A DNA stretch of 64,000 bases from Verrucomicrobiales bacterium (GTDB taxonomy: Bacteria > Verrucomicrobiota > Verrucomicrobiia > Verrucomicrobiales > DEV007), in NCBI GenBank assembly GCA_029213065.1, contig JARGPH010000025.1, positions 1-64,000 on the forward strand, written 5' to 3'. Both the position numbers and the translations under genes were made by a program. Under the pieces are notes generated by a model that saw nothing but the letters and a program-made list of their open reading frames with translations, was not told where the DNA came from and ran no database searches. Numbering within the stretch: position 1 is the stretch's first letter; every line of letters starts with the position of its first letter. Shown here one piece after another: positions 6,797 through 56,441 of this stretch.

Positions 6797-6859
6797 AAGG
6801 CCAGTCTAACGGAGCCCCGAAATCCCGTCCAGATTTTCGTGGTCGGAATTCAGCTCAGG

Positions 6860-7750
6860 TCAGGTTGCCGGAATGAACCGTTGAGCAACCAGGGTGAGTC
6901 CGAAGCAGGCGAGACAGGCAACGGCGGCCTGCCAGTTCGCGAAGGCGACAATGGAGGCATCGTAGAAAGCGATTCCGGCGATCGCGAAGGCGATTCCTTT
7001 GGGAACTTTTTCATGGAGCGCTTTCAGCATGATGACGAGCCAGGACCAGACCCCGAAAACCCCGACGACGATGAGCGCTATTTTGGCGGGGTTCGGCTCG
7101 GGAGCGAGGAGGCGGGAGCCGAAAAGCGGGAATAAAACCGGGATCATCAGCATGATGCGGGCGCCGAAAGGAAGTCCTCGCGGCGTTTTGAGGTGTTCGG
7201 AGCGAGCCGCAAGCGTCAGCCCCGCGATGTAAAGAACGACTCCGAAGGCGACGATGTAGACCGGCTCGGGCATCTCGATCCCCGCCGTATTGGTGACGAC
7301 GGCACTGCCGGCCCCGAGGTAAACGAGGGAGCGGCAAATTCCCATGATGATGACCGAGCCCGCCCAGCGTTTGTGGAGCCAGTTGTAGAGTAGGATCGCT
7401 AAAATCAATCCGCCGATGAGGAAGGGCTGAACGCCCGTGAAAAGGAAGAGAAGCGCGGCCCCGGCAATCATCTGGATCGATCCTACCGCCCAGACCGCCG
7501 TGACCGAAATATGTCCTGCCGCGATGGGGCGGTCCGGTGCGTTTTCTTTGTCCCAGCCTGCGTCGAAGGCATCATTCAGGGTCATTCCGGCGAGATAAAG
7601 CAGGCTCATTCCCGCGAGAATCCAGAGGAGTTCGATGTTCCAGACACCGCCTGAGAGAAACCAACCGACAGCGACATTGGTCCAGATTGTGGGGAGATTG
7701 GAGATCCGACCGAGAATGAGGAGGGTTCGTAGAATGCTGGATTCCTTCAT
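6860..7750 (-). CDS. UbiA-family prenyltransferase (possibly EboC-like)
   Basis: About 296 residues of almost continuous hydrophobic helices. The first prenyl-diphosphate-binding motif is clear: NDAFDAGWD at about 59-67, followed by APDRPIAAGH. The second Asp-rich motif of canonical UbiA enzymes is not obvious; the corresponding stretch reads LTLAARSEHLKTP. ATG at 7750 is preferred over a TTG two codons upstream. The family transfers prenyl chains to aromatic or other acceptors in the inner membrane; acceptor unknown. The missing second motif and solitary setting fit the EboC-type subgroup better than quinone enzymes (inference). Confidence 0.75.
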   Translation of the reverse strand: MKESSILRTLLILGRISNLPTIWTNVAVGWFLSGGVWNIELLWILAGMSLLYLAGMTLNDAFDAGWDKENAPDRPIAAGHISVTAVWAVGSIQMIAGAALLFLFTGVQPFLIGGLILAILLYNWLHKRWAGSVIIMGICRSLVYLGAGSAVVTNTAGIEMPEPVYIVAFGVVLYIAGLTLAARSEHLKTPRGLPFGARIMLMIPVLFPLFGSRLLAPEPNPAKIALIVVGVFGVWSWLVIMLKALHEKVPKGIAFAIAGIAFYDASIVAFANWQAAVACLACFGLTLVAQRFIPAT

Positions 7751-7806
7751 TTGCAAAAGCTGAAATGGAAATCGACCAGCGTAGCTCGACCGACGTGGCC
7801 GGGAAG

Positions 7807-7880
7807 TGGCAACTCCACAAGGATTCGAACCTTGACAAACAGAACCAAAATCTGTTGTGCTACCGTTACACCATGGAGTT
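7807..7880 (-). tRNA. tRNA-Gln (anticodon TTG), CCA encoded
   Basis: Read on the minus strand this folds as a full tRNA: acceptor AACTCCA/TGGAGTT, D arm with GGTAGCA, anticodon stem ACAGA/TCTGT with loop TTTTGGT (anticodon TTG), T loop GGTTCGAATCC, discriminator G and encoded CCA. The anticodon reads Gln codons CAA and CAG. It lies between the prenyltransferase and the phosphatase gene. Confidence 0.95.
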
Positions 7881-8013
7881 ACACGGGAGGGGACTATTAC
7901 GTGGAAATTTCAGGGAATCAAGTAGCCAGAATGATAATTTTTCACTGAGTTTCCGGAGGAGATAGGGGAATTATTTAATTGGCAATGGTTTAACTCCCTA
8001 TCAGGATTTCTCC

Positions 8014-9597
8014 ATGCTGTCTTCCACGGTCAAAAAACGCTCTGTTCTGATACTCTTATTGGCTCTGTTCTGGGCTTCGAGCGGGTATTCACAGCACGAC
8101 GCGCAACGCAATGCGATGCAGGCGCTTGCGAAGAAAAGTGAAAAGGGATTCTCAAGAGCGTTTCTCAATCCAAAGGTCGACTCGGGCGAAGCGGAAACTT
8201 TATTTGTGGGCATGCTCAAGTTGCTGGCAGAGGATCAGGTTGACGATGCGATCCTTGTCGCCCGGAAAGCGCTGGAGCTCGGCATTCCACCGGGGCGGTT
8301 CTTTGCAGGCCCCTTTAATCTGACTTCGAAATTGCGGGATCATGAGGACTTCGGGAGTTTGCCCGGGATCGACGGGGTCGGGCCCATCATTCACGGACCG
8401 ATGCTGGGTGATATCACCGCTACGGGCGCCAAGGTCTGGGTGAGGACGAAAGGGCCCGAAACCTACCACCTCATCGTCGGTGAGAACTCGAAAGAGGCAG
8501 TGGAAACGGAGCGAATCACGTTCTCTCCGGAGAATAATTTCACCGGGGTCTTTCAAATTGAGAATCTGAAACCGGACACGGAGGTGACCTGTTTCATCCG
8601 CAGCGATGACGTCGCTCTTTTCCCGGGGGAAGAGGCAATCACCTTTCGCACCCGGCCGGCAGTGGGAACTGCTTCTTCATTCAAGGTGGCTTTCGGGGGT
8701 GGGGCCGGGTTTGTCCCCGAGTGGGAATACATGTGGGACACGATCCGCGGATTCAAGCCGGACGCGATGCTCATGTTGGGTGACAACGTCTACATCGATC
8801 AGCCGGAGCACATCCAAACTCACGACTACTGCTACAGTCGTCGTCAGAACCGCCCCGAGTGGCGCCGTTTCATTCGCGAAGTCCCGATCTATTCGATCTA
8901 CGATGATCACGATTTCGGGGTGAATGACTGCATTCCCGGGCCTGAAATCGAAAAGCCGGCCTGGAAGCGCCGGGTATGGAACACCTTTCGGGAGAACTGG
9001 GCGAACCCGGGATACGGCGGGGGCGAAAAGCAGCCCGGTTGCTGGTATGATTTCCCGATCGGTGATGTGCAGTTTTTCATGCTCGATGGCCGCTACTACC
9101 GCGACCTTGAGGGCGGAAGCATGCTCGGACCGGTTCAGAGGCAGTGGCTTCTTGCCGGTCTTTCGAACTCCACGGCAACCTTCAAAGTGGTCGTCTCACC
9201 GGTTCCCTTCACCCCGGACATCAAGCCCGGCAGTAGCGACCCCTGGGACGGATTTCCTGAAGAGCGGGAGAAAATCTTTTCCCACATTGAGACGAATCGT
9301 ATCGATGGGGTTTTTCTGGTCTGCGCTGATCGCCATCGAACTGATCTGAGAAAAACGGAGCGCCCCGACGGCTACACCCTGTATGAGTTCGAAAGCTCGA
9401 GACTGACCAACAAGCACGTCCACGAGGTCGTGAAAACGGACGGTCTCGTCTGGGGATACAACGAGAAATGCTCCTTCGGACTCATGGAGTTCGACACCAC
9501 GAAGGAAGACCCCGAGGTGCGTTTCAAGGCCATCGACATCGACGGGAAGGAGCAGGGGAATTTCCTTCTGAAAGCGAGCGATCTCCAGCTACCATAG
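8014..9597 (+). CDS. Secreted PhoD-like metallophosphatase
   Basis: 527 residues with a Sec signal peptide (about 1-28, KKRSVLILLLALFWASSGYS). A helical N-terminal part (30-115) precedes a beta-rich domain (about 125-215) and the metallophosphatase core: MLGDNVYID (254-262), IYDDHDFGVND (295-305) and a late CADRHRTD. These match PhoD-type alkaline phosphatases and phosphodiesterases, which use a metal centre outside the cytoplasm. An AGGA element lies about 8 bases before the ATG. PhoD enzymes are usually Tat-exported, but no twin arginine is visible here. Substrate not determinable. Confidence 0.85.
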   Translation: MLSSTVKKRSVLILLLALFWASSGYSQHDAQRNAMQALAKKSEKGFSRAFLNPKVDSGEAETLFVGMLKLLAEDQVDDAILVARKALELGIPPGRFFAGPFNLTSKLRDHEDFGSLPGIDGVGPIIHGPMLGDITATGAKVWVRTKGPETYHLIVGENSKEAVETERITFSPENNFTGVFQIENLKPDTEVTCFIRSDDVALFPGEEAITFRTRPAVGTASSFKVAFGGGAGFVPEWEYMWDTIRGFKPDAMLMLGDNVYIDQPEHIQTHDYCYSRRQNRPEWRRFIREVPIYSIYDDHDFGVNDCIPGPEIEKPAWKRRVWNTFRENWANPGYGGGEKQPGCWYDFPIGDVQFFMLDGRYYRDLEGGSMLGPVQRQWLLAGLSNSTATFKVVVSPVPFTPDIKPGSSDPWDGFPEEREKIFSHIETNRIDGVFLVCADRHRTDLRKTERPDGYTLYEFESSRLTNKHVHEVVKTDGLVWGYNEKCSFGLMEFDTTKEDPEVRFKAIDIDGKEQGNFLLKASDLQLP

Positions 9598-9737
9598 CCC
9601 TGCCCTCAGCATGGTCGCGTCCGGATGGAGTGGTGCGATGAATTTGTCCCACGCCGGAAACTCAATGATTTGAATGATTTCTGAGCTCTCTTGCCCATTT
9701 AATTTTATGGAAATTATATTAAAGTATGGTTTATTAA

Positions 9738-11132
9738 GTGGTTTTGAGTGCATCAGCCTCCAGTCATGACTACAAAGCGATACGCAACCGATCCATCAAG
9801 TCGGCTGTGTTGACCTCGTTGGCGTCTAAAATGGGGTCCGCTTTATTGCAATTGGTCTCCCTGCCGCTGGCCGCAAAGGTGCTTGGAAAAACGGAGTTCG
9901 GGATCTACGCGACGATCTCCATGACCATCACCCTGATTGTCCTGTTGGAACTGGGAGTCGGCCCGGCGCTGGCATTGGGGATTTCGAATGCCAATGCGCG
10001 TAAGGATCGGAATACAGAGCGCAAGTATTACACGACGGCGCTGGCGCTCATTGCCGGATTTGCCCTTCTCGGCGCGGCCATCGTGGGCGTGGTGATTTCG
10101 CTGGTTCCGATTGAGGTTCTCTTCGGAGCCAACTACGCGGGACTGGAAAGCGTCATGATTCCGGGACTCGTCGTCGGGCTTTGCCTCTACACCTGCGAGC
10201 TGATTTTGAGCCACACCGATCAAACCCGCGAGGGCTACATGGAATCAAATCATTCCAATGCCTGGGGCGCAGTTGGGAATGTTTTGTCTGCAGCCTGCGT
10301 GGGATATATTGCCGTGTCAGGAGTGGCGACGGTTCAACTTCTTCTCATCGCGGTTTTCGGGCCCCATGTTTTAGTGCGGGTGACCAACACCGTTTTCCTA
10401 CTTCGAAAGCGCGCGTATTTGCTGCCGAAGGTTGAGAACTTCGAGCGGAAGATTGCGGGAAGGATTCTCAAGGATGGTCTTGCCCTTTCCGTTTCCTACG
10501 CGCTCACCGTTATGGTCGAGTTCAACCTCTGTGCTCTCATTGTCGGGCGGATCGCAGGTCCGGATGAGGTGGCAATGTTTCAGGTTTTCGTCTCTGTCAC
10601 GATTGCGCTGAACGGGTTTATTCTCATGATCATGAGTCCGATGCGGCCCGCCGTGATCGATGCCTGGGCCAAGGGGGATCGCTCCTGGATTCTTTCGGCG
10701 GTATCAAAGATTTACATTTACACGCTGGCCTTTGCCCTGCTCGCCGGACTTGGTGCGATTTTTGTCGGTCCATGGGCGTTGCCAAAATGGTATGGCGAAG
10801 CGTTCGCGCCTCCCGCGTCGCTTTTTGTCGCGTTCTCTTTCTACTTTCTGGCGAATGCGTGGCGCCGGTGCAATCAGCCTCTTGTTGTCAGTGTTGGACG
10901 GGTCATTGGGTCCGTGAAATACACTCTGTTTGAAATCGGGCTTACGATTCTGGCGGCCGTTGTCGGAATGTACTATGGCGGTTTGACTGGGTTGTGGCTG
11001 GGCGTCGCTCTCTCTATCACTGCCGCAACCGGCTGGGCATTCCCGATGATTTTCTGGAAGGCAATCCGGTCTGTTTCAGAACGGACAGAGGAAGGTGATC
11101 CCGGCGAAGTTTCCAATCCAGTCACCACCTAG
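9738..11132 (+). CDS. Wzx-type polysaccharide flippase
   Basis: 464 residues, about 12-14 hydrophobic helices, beginning IKSAVLTSLASKMGSALLQL and with LGKTEFGIYATISMTITLI, typical of the polysaccharide-synthesis (MATE/MOP superfamily) flippases that move lipid-linked glycans across the inner membrane. Start is GTG at 9738 (TTG at 9744 is also possible; no ATG lies near the N-terminus). The upstream 140 bases are AT-rich and probably carry the promoter. It is followed after 4 bases by a methyltransferase, so the two are likely co-transcribed. No glycosyltransferases are adjacent, so the substrate is unknown. Confidence 0.85.
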   Translation: MVLSASASSHDYKAIRNRSIKSAVLTSLASKMGSALLQLVSLPLAAKVLGKTEFGIYATISMTITLIVLLELGVGPALALGISNANARKDRNTERKYYTTALALIAGFALLGAAIVGVVISLVPIEVLFGANYAGLESVMIPGLVVGLCLYTCELILSHTDQTREGYMESNHSNAWGAVGNVLSAACVGYIAVSGVATVQLLLIAVFGPHVLVRVTNTVFLLRKRAYLLPKVENFERKIAGRILKDGLALSVSYALTVMVEFNLCALIVGRIAGPDEVAMFQVFVSVTIALNGFILMIMSPMRPAVIDAWAKGDRSWILSAVSKIYIYTLAFALLAGLGAIFVGPWALPKWYGEAFAPPASLFVAFSFYFLANAWRRCNQPLVVSVGRVIGSVKYTLFEIGLTILAAVVGMYYGGLTGLWLGVALSITAATGWAFPMIFWKAIRSVSERTEEGDPGEVSNPVTT

Positions 11133-11136
11133 GCGT

Positions 11137-11820
11137 ATGGAGAAAACTCATTTATCTGCCTCTTCTGAGAAGTCTGCCGTGTCCTCGCTCGTGAAGATGG
11201 TGAAACGCTGTGTGCCGGACTCTGTGAAGCTTGCTTCGAAAGCGCGCTTACGCCCCGGAGGACGTATCGGACTGAATCTTCCTGACCGGATCTTTCTTGA
11301 ACAGGTTTCCATTCCCTGGTTTGCAGAGCAGGAGGAGACCCGTTCCGTTTTAGATGTGGGCACCGATTGGTATACCTGGAAGTACGAGGTGCTTTTTCCG
11401 GGGATGGAGTACCAATCGATCGACTTTGATGCGGCGAAGGCGAAGTTTGCCTCTCCCAATCATGTCGTCGGATCGATTCTCGAGCTGGATCAGTATTTTG
11501 AAGAGAACAGGTTTGATCTCATTATCTGTAACGGCGTTTTCGGATGGGGTGTCGACGATTGCGCTGATATCGAGACAGCAGTGTCTCAGTTTTTCAGGGT
11601 GTTGCGTCCCGGCGGCTACCTCGTCATTGGTTGGAATGATAACGACGATCATCGACCGGAAGGCTTTGAGAAAACGGATGTAAAGGGATTTGAGCGATTT
11701 GTGTTACCTCCCATTGAATCCGATCACTTCAATTCCGCGGGCTCCAATCGGCATCAGTTCCGATTCTACCGCTCGGTGAAATCAGCGTCTGTTTCATCAC
11801 AGCATGAAACGATTCTCTGA
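11137..11820 (+). CDS. Class I SAM-dependent methyltransferase
   Basis: About 227 residues with a Methyltransf_11-like core: VLDVGTDWYTWKYE (motif I region, without the usual GxGxG), SIDFD (motif II acid), FDLIICNGVFGWG and FFRVLRPGGYLVIGW. ATG at 11137 is chosen because it follows the flippase stop by 4 bases; a GTG 14 codons upstream would overlap it. Coupling to the flippase suggests modification of a glycan or its lipid carrier (inference). The unusual motif I is worth noting, but the rest of the fold is convincing. Confidence 0.8.
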   Translation: MEKTHLSASSEKSAVSSLVKMVKRCVPDSVKLASKARLRPGGRIGLNLPDRIFLEQVSIPWFAEQEETRSVLDVGTDWYTWKYEVLFPGMEYQSIDFDAAKAKFASPNHVVGSILELDQYFEENRFDLIICNGVFGWGVDDCADIETAVSQFFRVLRPGGYLVIGWNDNDDHRPEGFEKTDVKGFERFVLPPIESDHFNSAGSNRHQFRFYRSVKSASVSSQHETIL

Positions 11821-11830
11821 CTGATTTTAT

Positions 11831-13624
11831 CTAACGCAGAAATAAGAAATCAGCGGTCGCGAGGAGGGCTCCCACTATCTCTTCAAGCGATTCCTCTTTG
11901 GCTGAGTTTGCCTCCCGCTCGGTCGGTGCCCGGGTCAGGATGCCAAGAAAAAGCGCTTCGATTTGATCTCCTTTCCCGGGAATACTCCGGATTTTGCGCA
12001 GTAGCGCAGAGTAGGGATTCATCACAGCCTCTGCGAGTTCCCCGTTGTGAATCGCGAGTGACTGCGGGATCGAGGCATTTCTATTAGCATTGGCGATGCT
12101 CTGTCGATCCGATTGGCCGAAGGTTCTCAGGAAGTGACCCCGGGGGGCCGGGGAACTCAGTTCGCTGGCGCGGTAGAGTTTTGCGTGAGATGATTTCCAC
12201 TGCAGAAACGTCTTCTTCGGTCCGATCTCTTCGGATCTGATCTTATCCAGCGCACTCCTCATGCTTTTCCGGCGGGCGAGGAGTTCGGCTGCTTCCGGGC
12301 ACGGGGCGCGCCCTCTCCGTCGCGCGAATTCCCGGCCTTCGGAAGTGCGCAGCCATGCCTCTACCGATTCCGTGGATTTTCCGTCAAATTTGGAGGCCCG
12401 GATTCTGAGATCGTCGACAATGAGAGTCACGAAGGTATCCCAAATTTGCTCCGCACTGAGCCGTCGAAGAAAAGGGGCCTCAAAGTAGACCTGGTCTCCC
12501 GGGGAATAGGATCGTGTTAGGGGTTCCCGCTGCCAGGCTTTGGACTTCATGACAGTGGAGAGGAATTGTTTCACATCGTAGTGATTCGTTCTCATCGTCT
12601 CAATCAACTCCGACTCGAGGGCTGGATTGTAAGCGACTGTTTCATCGCGAAGATCGTCAAGAGGCGGGGGGACCAGTCCGGCGCCGAACAGTTGTTCCCA
12701 GAGGCGATTCACAATGACCCGGGTGAACCGGGGATTGGCGGGCGAGGTCAGCCAGTTGGCAAAAGTCTCCATGGGGAGTTCGGCGGGATTTACCCTGACT
12801 GATTCACCAAAAGCTGTGGAGGCGGCGATCTCAGTAAGAGGCTCAGCGTCAGTGTATTGATAGTCGTGTGGAAGTCTAAGAGGATGCTTCCAGCTCGTGA
12901 CGGTTCCAAACCGCATCGGAATCGTCAGTCGGTTGATGTCCGATTTTTCGGGCCCCTTGATCTGAAGGTAAATATCCGGATACTTGCTCGCGCGAACTTT
13001 GTAGGCGAACGCGGCCATCTCGTAGAAATCCTTTTGCGTCCATTGGTCGAAGGGATGGTTGTGGCATTGTGCGCATTCCATCCGCGTTCCCGCAAAGACT
13101 TGCATGAGACCGCTAAAATTCTCCAGTGGCATTCCAAAATCGCGGAGGTAAAATCCCACGGCACCGGCGTTTTCCTTTTCCCAGATATTACCCTGTCGAC
13201 TCAACAGATTCCGAACGAACTGGTCGTAGGGAATATTTTCCTCGAGTGAATCGAGCAGCCACTGTGAATATGCCTGTCCCGTGATGCCGCTCCGTGTAAT
13301 CTCAAGATCCGTCGAGATTCGAAGCAGGTCGGCCCAGAAATGAAACCAGTGTTTCGCGTAGCCTTCGGAGTCGAGGAGGGAGTCGATAAGGCGAGGGCGT
13401 TTCTCAGGATCGGTTGAGCTGAGAAACCGGTTTGCTTCGGTCAGGGTGGGGGCGCGACCGATCGCGGTGAAATAGACGCGTCTCAGAAATGTGGTTTCAG
13501 AGGCGGCCGGGGGAAGCTCGATCTGATGTGCCGAACAATCGTCCGCAATCTTTTCATCGATGCCGGCTTCAACCGGAAGGCTGAAGAGAAATATAAGAAA
13601 GAAAAGTTCGCAGAGGTTGCGCAT
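11831..13624 (-). CDS. DUF1549/DUF1553 secreted protein with CxxCH motif (no DUF1501 partner)
   Basis: About 597 residues starting at the ATG before MRNLCELFFLIFLFSLPVEA, a clear Sec signal peptide (a GTG/TTG extension of 13 codons would bury it). DUF1549 begins near TTFLRRVYFTAIGRAPTLTE; CAQCHNHPFDQW is the CxxCH motif that joins the two halves; DUF1553 follows with FTRVIVNRLWEQLFG. These families are common in Planctomycetota and Verrucomicrobiota and function is not established. Unlike most members it lacks the N-terminal cytochrome-like domain and has no DUF1501 gene beside it. Convergent with the methyltransferase, divergent from the ceramidase-like gene. Confidence 0.85.
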   Translation of the reverse strand: MRNLCELFFLIFLFSLPVEAGIDEKIADDCSAHQIELPPAASETTFLRRVYFTAIGRAPTLTEANRFLSSTDPEKRPRLIDSLLDSEGYAKHWFHFWADLLRISTDLEITRSGITGQAYSQWLLDSLEENIPYDQFVRNLLSRQGNIWEKENAGAVGFYLRDFGMPLENFSGLMQVFAGTRMECAQCHNHPFDQWTQKDFYEMAAFAYKVRASKYPDIYLQIKGPEKSDINRLTIPMRFGTVTSWKHPLRLPHDYQYTDAEPLTEIAASTAFGESVRVNPAELPMETFANWLTSPANPRFTRVIVNRLWEQLFGAGLVPPPLDDLRDETVAYNPALESELIETMRTNHYDVKQFLSTVMKSKAWQREPLTRSYSPGDQVYFEAPFLRRLSAEQIWDTFVTLIVDDLRIRASKFDGKSTESVEAWLRTSEGREFARRRGRAPCPEAAELLARRKSMRSALDKIRSEEIGPKKTFLQWKSSHAKLYRASELSSPAPRGHFLRTFGQSDRQSIANANRNASIPQSLAIHNGELAEAVMNPYSALLRKIRSIPGKGDQIEALFLGILTRAPTEREANSAKEESLEEIVGALLATADFLFLR

Positions 13625-13798
13625 CGGTGGCCGGAATTTACAAAGGTTACCGGCCTGCCGCAAGGATCGTCAACGGTCAATCCCACGTGGTGGCGGTAGG
13701 GGGGGGATCGTGCTGGATGGGGGTATGGCCCTATCTGCGCCACACGGTCGGCTTGTCTTACCGATTTGAGTTTTCTACGCTCACGGTGAATTGGATTC

Positions 13799-15292
13799 AT
13801 GAAGTCACTGTTTGCCGCCATCATTTTCTGCTCCTTTGCCCTCCCTCTTGAGGCGGAAACGATTCTCGGAGGTGTCGCCAAAGTGGATATCACGCGGGCA
13901 GGAGAGGATGCCGGGGAGAACCCTCTCTGGGCGAAAGCGCTCGTTCTCAGTAGGGGAGATACTCACGTTGTTATCGTGACAGTTGACGCGGTCGCAATCG
14001 CAGAAATCGGCTCGATCCGGGATCCGTATTTGGCTAATGTTAGGTCAGAGCTGCAAAAATCGATTGGGGTGCCGCCTCAATCCATTATTATCAATGCGAG
14101 TCATTGCCACGGGATCGTTGCTCCGGATGTGGAGGCCAAAACGATTGAAGCGGTGACGAAGGCCTGGGAGAAAAGGGTCCCGGTGAAGACGGGCGTTGCA
14201 TCGGGAACTGAGAACAGCATTTCAATCAACCGGCGGCTTCGGCTCAAAAGTGGAAGGGAGAGTGATGTGCGTCACGCCTACGCATTGCCGAATGACGAAG
14301 AGGTCGCATCGGTGGGCCCGATTGATCCGGAGATCGGAATTCTCCGCATTGATAGAATGGAGGACGGCGAGCCTCTCGCGCTTGTATACAATTTTGCCTG
14401 CCATCCCATCATGGGGATTCCCAGTGGCGGCAATACAGCGGATCTCTCAGGATTTGCCTCCAATGTGATTGAGCGCAATCTGGGTGACGGGAAGGCGATG
14501 GCGCTCTTTGTTCAGGGTTGCGGGGGCGACATCAATCCGGTTCTCTACAAGTCGGTGACTCAGCCGCGCGACGGGGAGCCGCTTGGAACCCGCCTCGGCC
14601 TGAGTGTTCTCGAAGCAGCGCGGCGGATCGAGACACAACCCGGAGGAGGTTTGTCATTACTTGCCCGAAACGTTTCCCTGCCGAGAGCCGACCTCGCAGA
14701 GCGAATCGCTGAGATGGAGAAAGAGATCGACGAACTCCTTATTTCACTGAAAGGGACGACGCTGAATTTTGAAACCTTTCTCCCGCTATTCGTGAAATAC
14801 CAAATGTCAGGGGAGTATCCCTCGGCGACGTCCTATCGCTATCTCCAGGATGAGCTCCTGCAACGCGAAGATTGGAAGAAGCTCGATTCCGATAACCGGA
14901 AAGCAATGGAAGCTTACCTGAAGAATATCCGCTCGATGGAAGAATTAACCCGGAAGCAGATCAACCTCGCTCTGATACGAAAGCATCAGGCCCGCAATGT
15001 GAAAGCGGGAGAGACGGTCGAAGCTGAGGTCGTGGCTCTCGGCGTGGGGAATTTTAAAATGGTCACTTTTCCCGCCGAGCTGACCGTGCCGATCGGGCTG
15101 AATATTAAGAAGAACTCTCCTCACAAACACACCTATGTCGCGGGATACACCAACGGGTATCTCTATTACGCGCCAACTGCGAGTCAGCTCGAGAATCGGG
15201 GCGGAGCGCAGGAAGACAGTGATTGTCTGCTCGCGCCGGAATGGCAGGCGATATTCGAGGACCTCGCTCTCTCGCTTCTCGAAAAACTTTAG
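13799..15292 (+). CDS. Neutral/alkaline ceramidase-like secreted protein
   Basis: 497 residues with signal peptide MKSLFAAIIFCSFALPLEA. The mature part opens with GGVAKVDIT, has NASHCHGI in the position of the Zn-binding 'TH.H' region of neutral ceramidases, NFACHPIMG, and FVQGCGGDINPV near 240. The family cleaves the amide bond of ceramides or related acyl compounds; many bacterial homologues have unknown substrates. It is followed after 15 bases by a sialidase on the same strand, probably one operon. Weak similarity over the C-terminal third makes the exact activity uncertain. Confidence 0.7.
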   Translation: MKSLFAAIIFCSFALPLEAETILGGVAKVDITRAGEDAGENPLWAKALVLSRGDTHVVIVTVDAVAIAEIGSIRDPYLANVRSELQKSIGVPPQSIIINASHCHGIVAPDVEAKTIEAVTKAWEKRVPVKTGVASGTENSISINRRLRLKSGRESDVRHAYALPNDEEVASVGPIDPEIGILRIDRMEDGEPLALVYNFACHPIMGIPSGGNTADLSGFASNVIERNLGDGKAMALFVQGCGGDINPVLYKSVTQPRDGEPLGTRLGLSVLEAARRIETQPGGGLSLLARNVSLPRADLAERIAEMEKEIDELLISLKGTTLNFETFLPLFVKYQMSGEYPSATSYRYLQDELLQREDWKKLDSDNRKAMEAYLKNIRSMEELTRKQINLALIRKHQARNVKAGETVEAEVVALGVGNFKMVTFPAELTVPIGLNIKKNSPHKHTYVAGYTNGYLYYAPTASQLENRGGAQEDSDCLLAPEWQAIFEDLALSLLEKL

Positions 15293-47254: not shown

Positions 47255-47797
47255 CTACTCAGCAAACGGACTCGCCGCAAATTTCTCGAACTCGGCTTTC
47301 ATTGCTTCGACGGAAGCCTCCGGTCCGGTCAGCTTGAGGAAAACAGCGCCCTGATCGCTTGGAAGGATCGCCGCGAGCATCATGTAGTTTTCCTTCGGTG
47401 TTTTGTCTCCGGAAAACGGACCGCCCATGGACTCCATGAAAGTGCCTTTGGCAGTGAGAAAGCTGACTTTGCGGCCTCCCATTTCTTTCTCTTCAATCTT
47501 GGACTCAGGGGTGCCCTGGAACTGACCGATCCAACGATCGAGGTTTGCCTGGATGCCGCCACCCTGACCTTGACCGAAGAAATAGAGGACGAGATCAACG
47601 TCGGCGAGATTCTCATCTTCGTGATCGTAAGTGAGCTGGCCGGCCCGCATCGAGCTGGTGACCTGCTGGCGGATCCATGGCTTGCCATACTTGAAGGTGA
47701 ACTCACTCACCGCGAGGGTGTCGGGCTCTTCCGCCTGCGCGAAATGTGGCAGAGCGAAAAAGGAAACGGCAAGAAGAAGACAGAGGGTTGATTTCAT
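47255..47797 (-). CDS. Hypothetical secreted protein
   Basis: 180 residues with signal peptide MKSTLCLLLAVSFFALPHFA. The mature part is mixed alpha/beta with FKYGKPWIRQQVTSSMRAGQ, VDLVLYFFGQGQGGGIQANL and VSFLTAKGTFMESMGGPF. The same arrangement occurs in conserved hypothetical proteins of Planctomycetota and Verrucomicrobiota, but I cannot name a family. No metal or catalytic motif is seen. Divergent from the VHL-zincin gene, with 108 bases between the starts. Confidence 0.65.
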   Translation of the reverse strand: MKSTLCLLLAVSFFALPHFAQAEEPDTLAVSEFTFKYGKPWIRQQVTSSMRAGQLTYDHEDENLADVDLVLYFFGQGQGGGIQANLDRWIGQFQGTPESKIEEKEMGGRKVSFLTAKGTFMESMGGPFSGDKTPKENYMMLAAILPSDQGAVFLKLTGPEASVEAMKAEFEKFAASPFAE

Positions 47798-47905
47798 GGC
47801 GAATAATCTGGTATGGAATTTCGCGGTGACAAGTACCGTCTTTCCTGCGCAAACAGGGTGGCTGAAGAGGGTATAGTCGGTCCGTTAACCCTGTTGAATC
47901 CCCCC

Positions 47906-49075
47906 ATGAAACCCTGTTTGACCCTCCGCCTGACCCTCGTGAATCTCGTGCTCGGAGGTATCCTTGAAGTGGTATCGGCGGAGGTGGTCGCCCCGCCCGG
48001 AGACGAGGTGGCGCGTCTCGCTCTCGATGCACAGTATGAGAAATACCTCAGCGCAGGTGGTTTTCCCATCGTCGCTTCCGCCGGGGTCGAGGACGAAGCG
48101 CTTCTCGAAGCGGCTTTTCTCATCGGGAAAATGATCGGGCACCGGCCGGATATTTTGAAAGCCCTTCGTGAGAACAAAGTCCGGCTGTCGATCATGGCGA
48201 CGGACGAGCTGACGACCGATATTCCCGAGCACGCCACGCTCAAGCCGAAGGTATACTGGGATAGACGAGCGCGCGGACTGGGGGCTTCAAAAGAGCGTCC
48301 CGCGGTATCGGTCGGCGAGGAGAATCTGCTCGCGCTCGAAGGCGATCCCTACAGCACTGAAAGCATCATGGTTCACGAATTCGCTCATGCCATTCATCTC
48401 ATGGGAGTGAATTCGATCGACGATTCATTTCAGACCCGATTGGAGCAGACTTTTAATCGGGCTTCGTTGAAGGGGCTTTGGAAAAGCAAGTATGCGGGAA
48501 CGAACCCCTCTGAATATTGGGCCGAGGGGGTTCAATCGTGGTTCGACACCAATCGCGAAAACGACCACGATCACAACCATGTGAACACGCGTGAAGAGTT
48601 GCTCGAACACGACCCCGGGCTTGCGGCGCTCGTCGAGTCGATCTTCGGGGACTCACCGTGGCGCTACCGGAATCCGAAGCTTCGGAAAGAGCCTGGCCAT
48701 CTCGCGAGCCTTGATCGGGCTGCGGCTCCCGTTTTTGCGTGGCCGCCGGATCTCGAGGCCGCCTACGATGCACTGCAGAGTGGTGAGGATCGAAAGCAGC
48801 TCGAAATGAAACCGGGGAAAGCGCCGGAAGGCAGCGTTTCAGGAAAAAGCGCCGGGGCGGTGCAATTGCGTTTTGATAATCATACCGAAGAAACGGTCCG
48901 GATTTTCTGGATCGATTTCGTGGGGGAAAGAAAAGCCTTCGGCTCGATCGATCCCGGAAGAAATCACGATCAATCGACCTTCAGCGAACATCTCTGGGTC
49001 CTCGTCGGCGAAGGCGGCGACGATCTCGGCTGGATCGCCGCCCCGGAAGAGGATGGTTTGGTCAATGTCAGGTAG
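47906..49075 (+). CDS. Secreted zincin-type metallopeptidase with C-terminal VHL-like domain
   Basis: About 389 residues from ATG 47906, which starts a signal peptide (CLTLRLTLVNLVLGGILEVV). HEFAHAIH (157-164) is the HExxH zinc site and EYWAEG (203-208) supplies a likely third ligand, as in zincin-like metallopeptidases with an EYxxE pair. The C-terminal part (about 319-380), LRFDNHTEETVRIFWIDFVG and SEHLWVLVG, matches the von Hippel-Lindau beta domain pattern, which in eukaryotes binds hydroxyproline peptides. Function of the fusion is unknown. It ends 8 bases into the convergent lnt gene. Confidence 0.75.
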   Translation: MKPCLTLRLTLVNLVLGGILEVVSAEVVAPPGDEVARLALDAQYEKYLSAGGFPIVASAGVEDEALLEAAFLIGKMIGHRPDILKALRENKVRLSIMATDELTTDIPEHATLKPKVYWDRRARGLGASKERPAVSVGEENLLALEGDPYSTESIMVHEFAHAIHLMGVNSIDDSFQTRLEQTFNRASLKGLWKSKYAGTNPSEYWAEGVQSWFDTNRENDHDHNHVNTREELLEHDPGLAALVESIFGDSPWRYRNPKLRKEPGHLASLDRAAAPVFAWPPDLEAAYDALQSGEDRKQLEMKPGKAPEGSVSGKSAGAVQLRFDNHTEETVRIFWIDFVGERKAFGSIDPGRNHDQSTFSEHLWVLVGEGGDDLGWIAAPEEDGLVNVR

Positions 49076-50762
49076 CTGACCTCTTGCGCGATCGGAAAAT
49101 CCCCAACCCTCCCGCGAGCAGCGCGATGAGCCCGAGCGCGATCGAAAAGACGTCGCCGTAGCGGGCGTAGAAAGTCACGGGGGGATTGAGATCGACGAGG
49201 ACATCGCCGGGGAGGCTTCCGCGAATGTAGGTCGATCCGGATTCTTCATCGCGGAGGATGCGGGGGTAGGGCGACATCGAAGTGCGGTCGTAGACGCTGC
49301 CTCTGTCGTCGATGAAAGCGCTCACTCCGGTGTTGGCGGCGCGGATGAGAGGGCGGCGCAACTCGATGCAGCGGAAGATCGCGTTGTTGAAATGCTGGGT
49401 CGGCTCGGCGCTGTCGTAGAACCAGCCGTCGTTGGTTACGTTCACCATGATCTGCGGCTCCGCCTTGATAAATTTCCTCGCGTGACGCGTCACGGTATCC
49501 TCGAAGCAAATCAGCGGGATCACCCCGATGTCGTGCCCGTCTTTTTCAATCGTTAGCGTTTCGTAGGATTCCCCGGGCGTGAAATCAGCGGAGATGATTC
49601 CCCCGGCGATCCACTCGAAAAGCGGGATGACTTTGCGGAAGGGGATGTATTCACCAAAGGGGATCAGGTGGACCTTTCTGTGCATTTGATAGGACTCCGT
49701 CGAGCCCTTCATCAGCGTGACCGTGTTGTAAATTTCGTCGCCTTCGAGGGTGCTGTCTTCGAGACCCGTGAGGAGGTAGAAATCCTCCCCTTTGAGGACG
49801 TGTTCGTTGAAATATTTCTGGACCCAGGGAAAGGCAAAATGTCCCGGCAACGCCGTTTCCGGCCAGAGCACGAGGTCGTGCGGGGAACTCTCGGTGAAGG
49901 TGCGGGTGAGGTCGCGGTAGTCGAAAATCACTTTCTGTCGCAGGCGGATGTCCTCGGACCATTTTTCCTCCAGCGGAATGTTCAGCTGCATGATGCGGGA
50001 CCGGAGCGTGACCGACTCTTCCGGCATCGCCCGCATCCGGTTCGAACCGTAGAGAAAAAGTCCGATGATGATGGATACACCGACTGCGAAATCAAAATGG
50101 GGGCGGAGGCGTTTGTGCTCCTTCGCTTCGTGGCCGAATCGGACAAAGGTGCAGTAAAGAATAATCCCCGAAAACATCATGATGAATCCGTAGCCGGTGA
50201 CGCCGATGGTGTCGGCGAATTGCACGAGGAGAAGCTGTTCTTTCAGGGCGACCCCGAGACCGTTCCAACCGAAGCCGGTGAAGAGGATGCCTCTAAGCCA
50301 TTCGAGTCCGCACCAGCAGGCCCCGTTGAGAAAGGCGATTTTGAGAACGTTGAAGGATTGTTCGAAGAGATCTTTTTTGTCCTTGTCAGGTTCTTTGATC
50401 TCCCATTTTCCAACCGTGATCGCAAAGATCCCGAAGACGCCGAAATAGAGAGCGAGGTAGAGCGTGATCGAAAGAAGCGCGAGGACGCCGGCCCAGATTG
50501 ACTCCGCGACGCGTGAGATTTCGGTGAACCAGTTGAGGCTGAGCACGAAAAAGCTCAGGCCCGAAAGGTAGGCGAGATAGAATCCGCGTTTCCATTCCGC
50601 TTTTTGTGTCGGGCGGGGGTTGGAAAACCATAGTGCGGTGAGGAGCGGGGCCTGCCAGATCCAGACGAGACTTCCGATGTCCCAATGCGGGTAGCAGAGC
50701 GCGAGAAGCACTCCGCTGAGGATCGCGGCCATTTCAGGCCAGTAGAGTTTAAGAAACCGCAT
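49068..50762 (-). CDS. lnt: Apolipoprotein N-acyltransferase
   Basis: 564 residues; about six N-terminal helices, then a nitrilase-type domain with the Glu-Lys-Cys triad: WPETALPGHF, IPFGEYIPFRKVIP region for Lys, and VIPLICFEDTV for Cys; NVTNDGWFYDSAEPTQHF and RAANTGVSAFIDDRG are the usual Lnt blocks. It adds the third acyl chain to lipoproteins at the inner membrane. Larger than the ~510-residue average because of an extended loop (about 140-165). ATG start; the stop overlaps the zincin gene by 8 bases. Confidence 0.93.
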   Translation of the reverse strand: MRFLKLYWPEMAAILSGVLLALCYPHWDIGSLVWIWQAPLLTALWFSNPRPTQKAEWKRGFYLAYLSGLSFFVLSLNWFTEISRVAESIWAGVLALLSITLYLALYFGVFGIFAITVGKWEIKEPDKDKKDLFEQSFNVLKIAFLNGACWCGLEWLRGILFTGFGWNGLGVALKEQLLLVQFADTIGVTGYGFIMMFSGIILYCTFVRFGHEAKEHKRLRPHFDFAVGVSIIIGLFLYGSNRMRAMPEESVTLRSRIMQLNIPLEEKWSEDIRLRQKVIFDYRDLTRTFTESSPHDLVLWPETALPGHFAFPWVQKYFNEHVLKGEDFYLLTGLEDSTLEGDEIYNTVTLMKGSTESYQMHRKVHLIPFGEYIPFRKVIPLFEWIAGGIISADFTPGESYETLTIEKDGHDIGVIPLICFEDTVTRHARKFIKAEPQIMVNVTNDGWFYDSAEPTQHFNNAIFRCIELRRPLIRAANTGVSAFIDDRGSVYDRTSMSPYPRILRDEESGSTYIRGSLPGDVLVDLNPPVTFYARYGDVFSIALGLIALLAGGLGIFRSRKRSAT

Positions 50763-52421: not shown

Positions 52422-53708
52422 CTAAGCGATGATCTCTTTGAGCAAGCCGCTGCTGTCCCCGTGGCGTTCCGCTTTAACGCCGACGCCGTGAAGCATCGAA
52501 AGCCACGCGTTGCAGAGAGGGGTGTCCTTCGGCGCGACGATGTTTTCACCCAGCTTGAGTCCCGCGCCGCCGCCGGTCAAAATGGTGGGGCAGTTGTTCA
52601 GCTCGTGGCCGGTTCGGATGTTGCTGCCGTAAGCGAGGGCGACATGATCGAAGAGGCTCGAGCCGTCGGCTTCTTTGGTTTCCTTGAGGCTGTCAATGAG
52701 GCCGGCGAGGAGTGCACTCTGAGTTTGGTCGCGCTTCTCGGAGGCAGCGAGCTTTTCCCCTTTGGTGGTAATGTAGTGGCTCATGTCGTGGGGATGCACT
52801 TTGATGCCGATACTGGTGAGAAGGGTTTCGACGGGCTGGCGATAGGTCAAAACGCGGGTGCTGTCGGTTTTCATTGCTGCAATCATGAGGTCATACATGA
52901 TCTCGATTTCCTTCTTCCCCGAGAGTCCTTCGCCCGGCTGCGGCATCGTCGTTTCAGGACGGGGAACGCCCATCCACTGCTCGTCTTTGCTGATTTGAGT
53001 TTCGATGTCGCGAATGCTCTGGAAATACTCGTCGAGTTTTGAAGTGTCGTTTTTGCTCAAGCCGCGCTGCATCTCGCGGGCATTTTCCAGCCCCGTATCG
53101 AGAACGCTGCGACGCTCCGCGAGTCGTGCCTTCTGCACTTCGATGGGAGTGGTGTCTTTGGAAAAAAGCCGGTGATAGGCGGCGAGCGGTCCGTCGAGAC
53201 CGGCCATGGGTTTGCCGCTGACATCCCAGGCAAGCGAGAGCCCTTCGCCGTGTCCGGAATTGGTTCGTCCCTTGACGTCATTCAGTTCCAGCGAAGAAAA
53301 ACGGGTGTGAATTCCAAACTCCGCCGCAGCGACCTGATCGGCGGTGATGCTGTTGTGCATGCTCTGTCCAGCCTGGGCGTAGCGGTTTGCACCGGACAAC
53401 CACCAGGTGCTGCCGGCGTGGCCTTCGCTGGAATACTGGTTCCACAATCCCTGAACGACCGAGAAATCCTTCTTGTGTCGTTCGAGCGGTTTTAAGCCGG
53501 AGGGAAGTTCGTAATCCGGTCCCGGTGTTTTGATGTCAGGATACCAGGTCTCGTCGGTGACGCCCCAGCCGAAGCCGAGGAAAATAATGCGCTTTGGCGG
53601 GGTGACGGCTTTGGCGGCGGAAGCGTAGCGTCTGAATCCGAGTGATTCCAGCGCGGGCAGCGCGATCAGCGCGGTGCTGGATTGTAGAAAGTGGCGGCGT
53701 GATTTCAT
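52422..53708 (-). CDS. DUF1552 family protein, Tat signal
   Basis: 428 residues with a twin-arginine start (KSRRHFLQSSTALIALPALE). PPKRIIFLGFGWGVTDETWY, SSEGHAGSTWWLSGANR and SITADQVAAAEFGIHTRFSS are DUF1552 blocks. The family is almost always beside a DUF1592 protein, as here (19 bases apart). Function unknown; both probably act outside the inner membrane. It follows the DUF1592 gene in the same transcript and precedes the sialidase. Confidence 0.9.
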   Translation of the reverse strand: MKSRRHFLQSSTALIALPALESLGFRRYASAAKAVTPPKRIIFLGFGWGVTDETWYPDIKTPGPDYELPSGLKPLERHKKDFSVVQGLWNQYSSEGHAGSTWWLSGANRYAQAGQSMHNSITADQVAAAEFGIHTRFSSLELNDVKGRTNSGHGEGLSLAWDVSGKPMAGLDGPLAAYHRLFSKDTTPIEVQKARLAERRSVLDTGLENAREMQRGLSKNDTSKLDEYFQSIRDIETQISKDEQWMGVPRPETTMPQPGEGLSGKKEIEIMYDLMIAAMKTDSTRVLTYRQPVETLLTSIGIKVHPHDMSHYITTKGEKLAASEKRDQTQSALLAGLIDSLKETKEADGSSLFDHVALAYGSNIRTGHELNNCPTILTGGGAGLKLGENIVAPKDTPLCNAWLSMLHGVGVKAERHGDSSGLLKEIIA

Positions 53709-53726: not shown

Positions 53727-56441
53727 TTACTTGGATTGAAATTCTTTGGAATGAACGATGGCGTGGACAAATGATCGCATCGCGAAATTTTCGGATTCCG
53801 CTTTTTCAACGATCTCCTCGATGAGGAATTCGTCACTGAAGCCAATGGGGCGTCCGAGCGCATACTCGCTCATCGCTTCGGTAAATCCGTGGGCGAAATC
53901 TGCTTTCCTTCCCGCGATGATATCCCGCAGTTCCAGATAGTCTTTGAATTCAGGTCCTTTGTAAAGCGCTCCGGCGGGATCGATCTGCCAGGTCTTTTGT
54001 TTGTCCTTCACCGGTTTTCCGTTGTCGTCTTTGACGATGAAGGTGTCTTCTGTCCGCCATGCCCCGACCGCGTCGAAGTTTTCCAATCCCAAACCAATCG
54101 GGTCGATCTTGCGGTGACAGCTCGCGCACTGCGCCTCCTCCTGGTGGGCGAGCAATCGCTCGTCGGTCGTGAGAACCTGACCGGCGAGGCGGGCGATTTG
54201 CGGAATGTTAGCCGGGGCCGGTGGAGGAGGATCGTTGAGCAATTTGCGCAGGACCCAGGTGCCGCGTTCGACCGGGTTGGTTTCGTCACCGTTGCCTCCC
54301 ATGAGACTGACCGCGGCCATTCCCAGCAAACCGCCACGAGGCGAACCTTCGGGAAGAGAGACCTTGCGAAACTCGCTGCCGGTGACGCCTTCGATTCCGT
54401 AATACTCCGCGAGAGTGGCGTCGAGAATCGCGTAGTCCGATTTCAGCAGGTTCGTGACGCTGTCATTTTCCCGCATCAAATGCTTCATCGTTTCGTAGAT
54501 CTCATCCCGCGCTGCCGCCTTGGTCGTGTTGTGAAAACGCGGATGCTTGACGACATCGACCTGAAAGAAATCGAGCCGGTCGAGCCCGAGCCACTGGTAG
54601 GTGAAGGAATGCACCAAATCTTCGGAGCGCGGATCGTCGAGGAGGCGGGTTGTTTCTTTGCGAAGCACTTCCGGTTTTGCCAATTCGCCACTCGCAGCGA
54701 GGGCGAGCAATGCCTCATCCGGCGGCGATCCCCAGATGAAATAGGAAAGTCGCGTCGCCAGTTCCTGCGGGCTGAGAGGTCGCGGTTTTGATTCCAGGTT
54801 CGGCTCGGCGAGGTAGAGAAACATCGGTGAAGACAGGACCACGGCGAGGGTGTCTTTGAGGGCGGTGGCGGGTTTCTCGCCGCTCTTGAGCCGTGTCTCA
54901 TATTTCCGCATGAGCCCGTCGAGGTATTTGGCTGAGGGTTCGCGTCCGCGGAACGCCCCCGTGGCGAAACGGTTCAAGGTTCCGCGCACTTTCTCCAATT
55001 CAGGGGCGGGTGATTTGTCATCGAGAGGCACATCGATCGCGGCGATCCCTTTGGGCAGGGGGCCATCGGATTCCGGAAGGCGTTCGATCTCGATGTAGTC
55101 GATCCAGAGGGCGAATTTCCTCCCGATCCCGTCGTTTTCCTCACGCCCCTTGTTCGCGAGGACGCGGGTTTGCAGGTAGTGATCAAAGACACCTTTTTCG
55201 CGGATGAACAAGGTTCGATCAAGGCGTTCTTTGTGGCCGCTCGTGAAGGTGAAGGGGATTTCAATGATCTCCGGCGCCTCCATCGTTCCGGTGACCTCAT
55301 ACGATTTTTTGGCCTGAGCATTTCGCGGGTTCACTCCGAACTCGATAAAGCGCCGGTCCGGACTTCCGTCGCCGGTTACGGCGGCACGAACGCGGATGAC
55401 GTAGTCTCCGATGGGCCAGCTCCACGGGAAGATGAAATCAAAGGTCGCGTTGTTGAGCACCGAGGGATGCTCATTCGACATCGCTAGATACATCCCGGTA
55501 TCAATCGCGGGCTGTTCCGCGTAGTAGTTGTGATAGGGCAGGTGGTAGGAGCGCAATGCCTGGTTGGCTTTGTCAGAGCTGTTTTCTTTGGACTCAAATC
55601 CGAATGATTCGGGTGAGGGCGCCCCGGGGATCTCAGCCCAGAAACGCCGGAAGATATTGTCATCTTTGGATTTCTTCCGGACTTCAGCGACGATCTCCGC
55701 GTTTTCCGGTTTCGCGGCGGCGGCCTCGACAGCGGCGGCCCATTTTGTGGCGCGCTCCTGCGCATCGGTCTGCCACGCGATGTGTTCGGCGACCTCTTCG
55801 GAAATGACTTCGCCCTCGAACCGCTCGATCCGTTTCTCTGTTGCCGCCTCTTCCGCAGCGGCGGCTAAATGCCATTCGAAGGCCTCATCGAGCGCTTTGC
55901 GTCCGAGATCCAGATACTGCTGGAACTGATTCGCCGAGATAAAAAGATTCGAGCCCACCGTGTCAAAATTACCCGAACCGGTGTCGGAGGGCAGCTCGCT
56001 CACATTGATTTCGACCCCGAGGAGTTCACGCAGGGTGTTGCTGTATTCGCGGCGGTTGAGACGTCGCATCGTGATGACTCCCTTTTGATCGCTCAGCTTC
56101 TTGCGCGTTGAGACCATCAGATTCGAGAGGTCATCGAGGAAATCGGTCTTCGCGTCGTTCGGGAGCGGTTCCTCGTCCTCGGGTGGCATCTCGCCGGAGT
56201 TGAGAGCGTCGAGCACTTTCTGCCAGCGCTCCGCCGACTCGATATCGGAGATCGTAAAGGGGAGGTCGTCGACGCGGAACTTGCCCTTTTTCTTGTCGGC
56301 ATTGTGGCACTGGTGGCAATGTTCTTTGAAGAGGGCGCGATGCTTCTCCGGCATTTCGGAGAGGGATTCTGCGTTCGCGGTGATGGCGAATGCACCGATG
56401 AGGATTACGGAAAACCGTTTTTTGAAAGTGGAAGCAGTCAT
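53727..56441 (-). CDS. DUF1587/DUF1592/DUF1588/DUF1585 cytochrome-like secreted protein
   Basis: 904 residues. Signal peptide, then a cytochrome-like segment HCHQCHNADKKKGKFRVDDL (CxxCH), DUF1587 (MRRLNRREYSNTLRELLGVE), DUF1595 (FATGAFRGREPS), DUF1592 (LATRLSYFIWGSPPDEAL), DUF1588 (EAQCASCHRKIDPIGLGLEN, second CxxCH) and DUF1585 (HGFTEAMSEYALGRPIG). Both CxxCH sites may bind heme. The middle also contains a long helical/beta insert (about 210-480) that is more variable than the flanking domains. Partner of the DUF1552 gene directly downstream. Confidence 0.9.
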   Translation of the reverse strand: MTASTFKKRFSVILIGAFAITANAESLSEMPEKHRALFKEHCHQCHNADKKKGKFRVDDLPFTISDIESAERWQKVLDALNSGEMPPEDEEPLPNDAKTDFLDDLSNLMVSTRKKLSDQKGVITMRRLNRREYSNTLRELLGVEINVSELPSDTGSGNFDTVGSNLFISANQFQQYLDLGRKALDEAFEWHLAAAAEEAATEKRIERFEGEVISEEVAEHIAWQTDAQERATKWAAAVEAAAAKPENAEIVAEVRKKSKDDNIFRRFWAEIPGAPSPESFGFESKENSSDKANQALRSYHLPYHNYYAEQPAIDTGMYLAMSNEHPSVLNNATFDFIFPWSWPIGDYVIRVRAAVTGDGSPDRRFIEFGVNPRNAQAKKSYEVTGTMEAPEIIEIPFTFTSGHKERLDRTLFIREKGVFDHYLQTRVLANKGREENDGIGRKFALWIDYIEIERLPESDGPLPKGIAAIDVPLDDKSPAPELEKVRGTLNRFATGAFRGREPSAKYLDGLMRKYETRLKSGEKPATALKDTLAVVLSSPMFLYLAEPNLESKPRPLSPQELATRLSYFIWGSPPDEALLALAASGELAKPEVLRKETTRLLDDPRSEDLVHSFTYQWLGLDRLDFFQVDVVKHPRFHNTTKAAARDEIYETMKHLMRENDSVTNLLKSDYAILDATLAEYYGIEGVTGSEFRKVSLPEGSPRGGLLGMAAVSLMGGNGDETNPVERGTWVLRKLLNDPPPPAPANIPQIARLAGQVLTTDERLLAHQEEAQCASCHRKIDPIGLGLENFDAVGAWRTEDTFIVKDDNGKPVKDKQKTWQIDPAGALYKGPEFKDYLELRDIIAGRKADFAHGFTEAMSEYALGRPIGFSDEFLIEEIVEKAESENFAMRSFVHAIVHSKEFQSK

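Follow-up and report, generated by a model that had tools for sequence, protein, structure and literature searches.

Does a bacterial zinc peptidase carry the beta domain of the von Hippel-Lindau protein (pVHL), and could it use that domain to read hydroxyproline (Hyp)? The hydroxyproline pocket of pVHL is central to oxygen sensing in animals and serves as the anchor of many degrader drugs. The question is raised by an open reading frame (ORF) in a 64,000-nucleotide stretch of DNA from a Verrucomicrobiales bacterium (contig JARGPH010000025.1 of assembly GCA_029213065.1), hereafter called the window. A first-pass annotation, made from the letters alone, had proposed that this ORF encodes a secreted zincin fused to a VHL-like beta domain, with Hyp as a possible ligand. 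The fusion of a zincin with a VHL domain is confirmed by a sequence profile and by predicted structure. The four motifs on which the proposal was built, HEFAHAIH (residues 157-164), EYWAEG (residues 203-208), DNHTEETVRIFWIDF and SEHLWVL, all lie in frame in the encoded protein, which is laid out as follows.

47906..49075, + strand: zincin-VHL ORF of 389 amino acids, with a signal-like N-terminus, a zincin resembling the Pro-Pro endopeptidases (PPEPs), a linker and a VHL beta domain; it has full-length relatives
47906..47980, + strand: likely signal peptide, residues 1-25, from the sequence; cleavage after VSA placed by eye
47996..48652, + strand: zincin domain, residues about 31-249, with a predicted PPEP fold, from a sequence match and the predicted structure
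48653..48829, + strand: linker between the zincin and VHL domains, from the full-length model
48830..49072, + strand: VHL beta domain, residues 309-389, a predicted seven-stranded sandwich, from Pfam, profile and predicted structure

Profile matches and structure models both indicate that the C-terminal domain of the 389-residue protein belongs to the VHL beta-domain family. PF01847 (VHL) matched residues 314-371 with an E value of 1.5e-7 and 31.8 bits, which passes the curated cut-off of 21, and it was the sole Pfam family above its cut-off in this protein; a scan of the protein against NCBIfam returned no family. Human pVHL was found weakly (E 0.046) when the PDB was searched with the single zincin-VHL sequence, and at E 6.8e-9 when the query was a profile built from 25 related VHL domains of bacteria. 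Modelled alone by AlphaFold, the domain reached a predicted local distance difference test score (pLDDT) of 92.1, and pVHL was the top match of this model (Foldseek E 2.3e-6; VIA Z 11.7, root-mean-square deviation (rmsd) 1.7 over 76). The beta sandwich called for by the annotation also appears in the full-length model (pLDDT 92.6, predicted template modelling score 0.85), where residues 309-389 superpose on pVHL residues 62-152 with Z 12.8 and an rmsd of 1.2 Å over 81 residues. Identity between the bacterial domain and human pVHL is 22%, and the pocket residues of pVHL align with it in register. A chance match or an unrelated beta sandwich is rejected on the basis of the Pfam cut-off, the profile E value, and the Z and rmsd values against pVHL. 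The annotation had bounded the domain at residues 319-389; the C-terminal end stands, and the predicted domain, at about 309-389, begins earlier and is slightly wider. Because the ORF stops at residue 389, right behind the beta domain, with no alpha domain or elongin C box, the protein is not a pVHL-type E3 receptor.

For the N-terminal half, the zincin profiles ATLF (PF07737) and M90 (PF06167) both matched, and both fell below their cut-offs (25.4 bits against 27.4 and 19.1 bits against 26.2, respectively); the ATLF cut-off was passed by four relatives (L063, L074, L023 and L315; here and below, L numbers denote loci). A single-sequence search of the PDB matched PPEPs at E 4e-4 over residues 69-216. 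A 32-row profile (alignment A1) gave weaker matches than the single sequence, with a lethal-factor chain as the best (E 0.015) and a PPEP at 0.083, and the relation to known peptidases therefore rests on fold and active-site residues rather than on sequence statistics. The best fold match of residues 31-249 was PPEP-3 (9g5j), with Z 14.9 and an rmsd of 3.6 over 189 residues. For the remaining PPEP entries Z was 12.5-14.4, and lethal-factor chains reached Z 13.2 with the full-length model. By predicted structure, this half belongs to the gluzincins and comes nearest to the PPEPs, a more specific assignment than "zincin". We do not class the protein as a PPEP, because Pro-Pro cleavage is only putative and the fold is common to other gluzincins. 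The residues of interest in this half are the following.

48257..48259, + strand: Trp118, invariant in 32 sequences and opposite PPEP-1 Trp103 in a phmmer alignment
48374..48388, + strand: HEFAH, with H157, E158 and H161 assigned by analogy as zinc ligands and general base; matches the HEXXH of PPEPs
48491..48526, + strand: Y196 (equivalent of the oxyanion Tyr), E203 (equivalent of the third zinc ligand) and E207, from alignment and comparison with PPEPs
48551..48601, + strand: the stretch NRENDHDHNHVNTREEL, residues 216-232, of whose 17 positions 14 vary little or not at all across 32 sequences

H157, E158, H161, Y196, E203 and E207 are invariant in the 32 sequences. Furthermore, the spacing of seven between Y196 and E203 equals that of Tyr190 and Glu197, the active-site pair described for PPEP-3 (PMC12828418). 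The same source describes an aromatic residue in the S-loop of these enzymes, which is Tyr113 in PPEP-3 and Trp103 in PPEP-1, where it stacks on the P3' proline. The correspondence of Trp118 to Trp103 was read by hand from one phmmer alignment, and because that alignment is gapped, Trp118 as the S-loop equivalent is a lead only. The NRENDHDHNHVNTREEL stretch is rich in His, Asp and Asn and could be a second metal site.

The likely signal peptide, together with a helix at residues 4-20 in the full-length AlphaFold model, suggests that the protein is secreted or located in the envelope. An alternative in-frame ATG at 47813 would extend the ORF by 31 residues and was judged the less likely start, because the signal-like stretch begins at 47906.

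VHL domains were surveyed in two genome samples, one of 74 genomes from the same family and one of 288 drawn across the phylum, with the window organism's own genome in both. PF01847 was found in 53 of the 74 family genomes (84 matches) and in 19 of the 288. From the fetched loci, 140 distinct VHL proteins were gathered by an iterated profile (E below 1e-4), and their partners were assigned by similarity to Pfam-scanned examples. The resulting classes were VHL-DPP-IV (33), VHL-zincin (28), sulfatase-VHL (21), zincin-VHL as in the window protein (19), VHL alone or unassigned (13), LRR-VHL (9), VHL-CAP (8) and VHL-esterase (5). The set is uneven, as the window protein was the query that yielded the zincin classes. 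Single cases were sulfatase-VHL-VHL-zincin, sulfatase-VHL-zincin, VHL-zincin-DPP-IV and a protein with five VHL copies. The window genome has one other VHL match, a CAP-domain fusion (L003:1396-2298; G000:C21:393801-393947). At L134 (1-1740, minus strand, from G307), a 580-residue stretch cut by the locus ends shows five VHL-like repeats with our own profile; Pfam lists one VHL stretch in it and no other domain. Metagenome-assembled genome titles such as Klebsiella, Akkermansia and Kuenenia, given to L078, L089, L052 and others, look doubtful.

Among 80 zincin loci, 36 had a VHL domain in the same ORF by our own profiles, 11 of them behind the peptidase and 25 before it, and 11 others encoded a zincin-DPP-IV fusion without detected VHL. 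One protein (L101) combines VHL, zincin and DPP-IV, the latter two by Pfam and VHL by our own profile only. Seven N-terminal VHL copies scanned with Pfam were below the cut-off of 21 (L082, 13.9 bits; L072, 14.4 bits) or not listed, at E 0.1 in L100, L023 and L104 and at E 0.01 in L068 and L101, and the N-terminal VHL-zincin class therefore rests on our own iterated profile.

The Hyp site of pVHL is described as Trp88, Tyr98, His110, Ser111, His115 and Trp117, with the Hyp hydroxyl bonded to Ser111 and His115 and the Hyp carbonyl to Tyr98 (PMC9528729). Alignment places the following residues of the window protein at these positions.

48908..48910, + strand: Trp335, equivalent to pVHL Trp88
48938..48940, + strand: Phe345, at the place of pVHL Tyr98 and a departure from pVHL
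48977..48979, + strand: Thr358, equivalent to pVHL Ser111
48989..48991, + strand: His362, equivalent to pVHL His115
48995..48997, + strand: Trp364, equivalent to pVHL Trp117

A complete pocket was defined as W88/Y98/[ST]111/H115/W117 and scored over 141 VHL domains, 53 of which have it. It is present in 31/33 VHL-DPP-IV and 11/19 zincin-VHL domains, in 5/12 unassigned, 3/21 sulfatase-VHL and 3/8 VHL-CAP domains, and in none of the 9 LRR-VHL domains, 5 VHL-esterase domains or 6 domains of the single cases. His115 by itself is kept more widely in the peptidase fusions (33/33 VHL-DPP-IV, 18/19 zincin-VHL and 26/28 VHL-zincin) and in VHL-CAP (8/8), compared to 5/21 sulfatase, 0/9 LRR and 0/5 esterase domains. 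Expressed by partner, His115 is kept in 77 of 80 DPP-IV- or zincin-fused domains versus 5 of 35 fused to sulfatase, LRR or esterase, a contrast that leaves out the CAP fusions, the unassigned domains (7/12 with His) and the single multi-domain cases. The tree of this short domain (142 rows, 55 columns) has 14 starred branches and one supported independent contrast. It is too poor to secure the association of His115 with partner phylogenetically beyond shared descent. The five pocket columns have a mean commonest-residue frequency of 0.79 versus 0.36 elsewhere (p 0.0009), to which core packing could contribute. Nine small LRR-VHL proteins of 281-305 amino acids (L139, L140, L150 and six more) all have Ala at the His115 position.

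Indirect support for the Hyp idea, at the level of the family, comes from this kept pocket together with the placement of VHL-DPP-IV genes in trans-4-hydroxyproline (t4Hyp) gene clusters. The published t4Hyp pathway consists of 4-hydroxyproline epimerase (4HypE), DAAO, DHDPS and an aldehyde dehydrogenase (KGSADH), as described in PMC4113996. PF05544, the family of proline racemase and 4HypE, occurs in 33 of the 74 family genomes, with some copies beside VHL genes, and the loci concerned were scanned over all ORFs, overlapping ones included. In genus g1, L224, L225, L226 and L227 share the order AraC-type regulator (divergent), DHDPS family, 4HypE, VHL-DPP-IV and DAO. Two more g1 clusters are truncated: in L230, which has VHL-DPP-IV, the contig ends before any DAO, and in L229 it is cut inside the VHL gene. 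L228, also from g1, reads AraC, 4HypE, sulfatase-VHL, DHDPS and DAO. Other lineages show related arrangements. L249 (family f2) reads DAO, AraC, 4HypE, DHDPS, aldehyde dehydrogenase, VHL-DPP-IV and aminotransferase; L298 reads DAO, 4HypE, DHDPS, DPP-IV and VHL-DPP-IV; and L256 (family f3) carries at 6311-14897 an apparent hydroxyproline-peptide utilisation cluster of DHDPS, aminopeptidase P, 4HypE, VHL-DPP-IV, a POT peptide transporter and DAO. In addition, a zincin of the same family as the window's, without detected VHL, starts the cluster of L315 (zincin, DHDPS, DUF885, 4HypE, DAO), and in L325 a gene of the M90 family is oriented divergently to 4HypE.

The enzymes of the VHL-DPP-IV clusters match the published pathway set, with aldehyde dehydrogenase seen in L249 only. 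The names epimerase, DHDPS, DAO and AraC come from NCBIfam and Pfam scans of L224 and L228 and were carried to the other loci by similarity. For the epimerases of these two loci, the best NCBIfam name is 4-hydroxyproline epimerase, with 364 and 373 bits that lie below the cut-offs of 442 and 450; the proline racemase model gives 149 and 207 bits. All eight epimerase sequences compared have both Cys residues, the first in MCGHG (5/8) or GCLHG/MCIHG (3/8) and the second in SPCGTG (8/8). The cluster DPPs are 64-81% identical within g1 and 46-56% identical between lineages. Seven VHL genes of the family have a PF05544 gene no more than 5 kb away, versus 0.16 expected (uniform model, Poisson 4e-10); with the g1 cases counted as two events, the Poisson value is 0.011. 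Among 51 loci, nearly all chosen around 4HypE and including one place twice (L313, L330), eight have a VHL gene in the cluster. As VHL-fused peptidases occur in Hyp-degrading clusters, bacteria may read hydroxyproline with the VHL fold.

For the window protein, these observations suggest a zinc endopeptidase of the PPEP fold, secreted or in the envelope, whose VHL domain serves as a substrate-reading module, a description that we consider evenly balanced between right and wrong. In such an enzyme, the VHL pocket would act as an exo-site that grips Pro or 4-hydroxyproline of an extracellular Hyp- or Pro-rich protein. The gripped substrate would be kept near the zinc site and its neighbouring proline-rich sequence presented there, and the zinc site would cut inside proline-rich stretches. 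Relatives with a fuller enzyme set might process the products further with VHL-DPP-IV and aminopeptidase P, import the peptides and feed them into the 4-Hyp pathway. Secretion, the binding of Hyp or Pro, the Pro-specific cleavage and the natural substrate are what we infer for the window protein. The broader proposal, held tentatively and at slightly less than even confidence, is that Verrucomicrobiota use VHL domains as exo-site Hyp readers on secreted proline-specific peptidases of DPP-IV and PPEP type that supply Hyp peptides to a dedicated catabolic operon, such that this use of the fold would not be an invention of animal oxygen sensing.

Several observations weigh against Hyp reading. 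Of the 33 VHL-DPP-IV genes, only 7 are found in Hyp clusters, with the truncated one of L229 in addition. The figure is 2 of 18 in the widened phylum sample and, with L229's truncated gene counted, 6 of 15 in the organism's own family; no 4HypE was found beside the remaining nine own-family genes or at L314, in flanks of varying length. The six clusters of one genus may be one event. Counted per genome, VHL and PF05544 are weakly linked (27/33 versus 26/41, Fisher p 0.12). None of the 11 loci with a C-terminal fusion has Hyp genes in the flanks scanned. The pocket is complete in 0 of 28 VHL-zincin domains, and these N-terminal copies mostly lack Tyr98 and Trp117. On the peptidase side, lethal-factor chains are less than 2 Z units below the best PPEP, and fold alone therefore leaves proline specificity unfixed.

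The alternative that survives best is that VHL is a general extracellular adaptor for a glycan or surface partner, with Hyp not its ligand and its placement in the clusters reflecting the DPP-IV half only. The non-peptidase partners listed above (sulfatase, 21; LRR, 9; CAP, 8; esterase, 5) fit this possibility, and since the sulfatase, LRR and esterase fusions mostly lack His115, Hyp specificity is not a general property of the VHL domain. It is also consistent with the sulfatase-VHL gene that likewise sits in a 4-Hyp cluster (L228) and with the DPP-IV genes without VHL that adjoin 4-Hyp genes in L310 and L298. However, the pocket columns are among the most conserved, and the pocket is complete in nearly all of the DPP-IV fusions. 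We regard a general adaptor as unlikely, yet as the most serious competitor.

A second alternative concerns the window protein itself, whose VHL domain might read Pro rather than Hyp for a Pro-Pro type peptidase whose targets could be, for example, surface proteins of the organism itself, as is the case for PPEPs in Firmicutes. PPEP-1 is described as freeing cells by cleaving adhesion proteins (PMC11460543), and the peptidase fold is nearest to the PPEPs. The window organism's genome, in an assembly that is 96% complete, has no match to PF05544 or to DPP-IV (PF00930), and the scan of the 64-kb window detected no 4HypE, DHDPS or DAO-type Hyp genes. In the pocket, Tyr98 is replaced by Phe345, and the other four of the five positions are kept (with Thr for Ser111); the loss of the Tyr98 hydroxyl could well leave binding weaker or different. 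Against a Pro reader, Thr358 and His362 are retained, whose pVHL counterparts are the two residues bonded to the Hyp hydroxyl. We find this explanation improbable. Finally, an Ig-like sandwich misread as VHL through chance or purely structural resemblance could appeal only to the low identity with human pVHL and is dismissed as scarcely credible by the Pfam score, the profile match, the close superposition and the pocket in register.

Hyp reading by VHL-fused peptidases has to be judged at two levels. The Hyp ligand suggested by the first-pass annotation gains indirect support at the level of the family, through the VHL-DPP-IV clusters and the pocket kept in VHL-DPP-IV and in part of the zincin-VHL domains; for the window protein it stays conjectural, given Phe345, the lack of PF05544 and DPP-IV matches in its genome and of Hyp genes detected in the window. 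Should bacterial VHL domains indeed read Hyp on proteins of the collagen, extensin or algal type, the fold would have a plausible role outside animals, and a family of Hyp-binding modules of natural origin would be at hand, along with new enzymes that act on proteins rich in Hyp. The gene-cluster context makes the hydroxyproline idea directly testable.

The surroundings of the gene are those of a chromosomal locus shared with relatives. Its two neighbours are given below.

47255..47797, - strand: divergent gene of 180 amino acids, syntenic in relatives
49068..50762, - strand: convergent neighbour, presumably apolipoprotein N-acyltransferase-like (lnt); syntenic in relatives

The divergent gene has no Pfam family at E 0.001. 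The order LysR, divergent 180-residue gene, zincin-VHL gene and lnt recurs in L033, L034 and L035. Because of this conserved order and of eleven full-length relatives with 44-64% identity (alignment A1), we consider the zincin-VHL gene a real, ordinary chromosomal gene. Farther along, the window encodes a PSD/PSCyt multidomain protein (53727-56441, minus strand) beside a gene that we take to be DUF1552-like (52422-53708, minus strand), a pair that is common in PVC bacteria.

A bacterial VHL beta domain has been reported in print for a protein of Litorilituus sediminis, with a proposed use relating to tumour suppression (PMC9002001); unlike the case described here, the main text of that paper does not contain the word peptidase. 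Our literature search, which covered few subscription papers, found no paper that treats a bacterial VHL domain as a Hyp reader, describes a VHL-peptidase fusion or links VHL in bacteria to hydroxyproline catabolism, and "VHL" is absent from the main text of a survey of prolyl oligopeptidase architectures (PMC4522959).

Among known systems, the t4Hyp operons (4HypE/DAAO/DHDPS/KGSADH) described in PMC4113996 resemble the set of genes that accompanies VHL-DPP-IV in related genomes. The relatives' clusters differ from them in adding a VHL-carrying proline peptidase, and the window gene lies outside any such cluster. The window protein is similar to the ATLF gluzincins and M90 in fold and by sub-threshold sequence matches. 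It has a single peptidase domain, comes from an environmental bacterium, shows no indication of a toxin and scores below both curated cut-offs. With PPEP-1, PPEP-2 and PPEP-3 it shares the predicted peptidase fold (Z 12.5-14.9), the HEXXH motif and the spacing of the Tyr and third-ligand Glu, whereas identity is about 17-23%, a family-specific NDHDHNH stretch is present and a VHL domain is added. Lastly, pVHL differs in that the window protein is a bacterial enzyme with a signal-like N-terminus, lacks the alpha domain and elongin box, has Phe for Tyr98 and diverges widely in sequence. Nevertheless, the two share the fold, the register, and the equivalents of Trp88, Ser/Thr111, His115 and Trp117.
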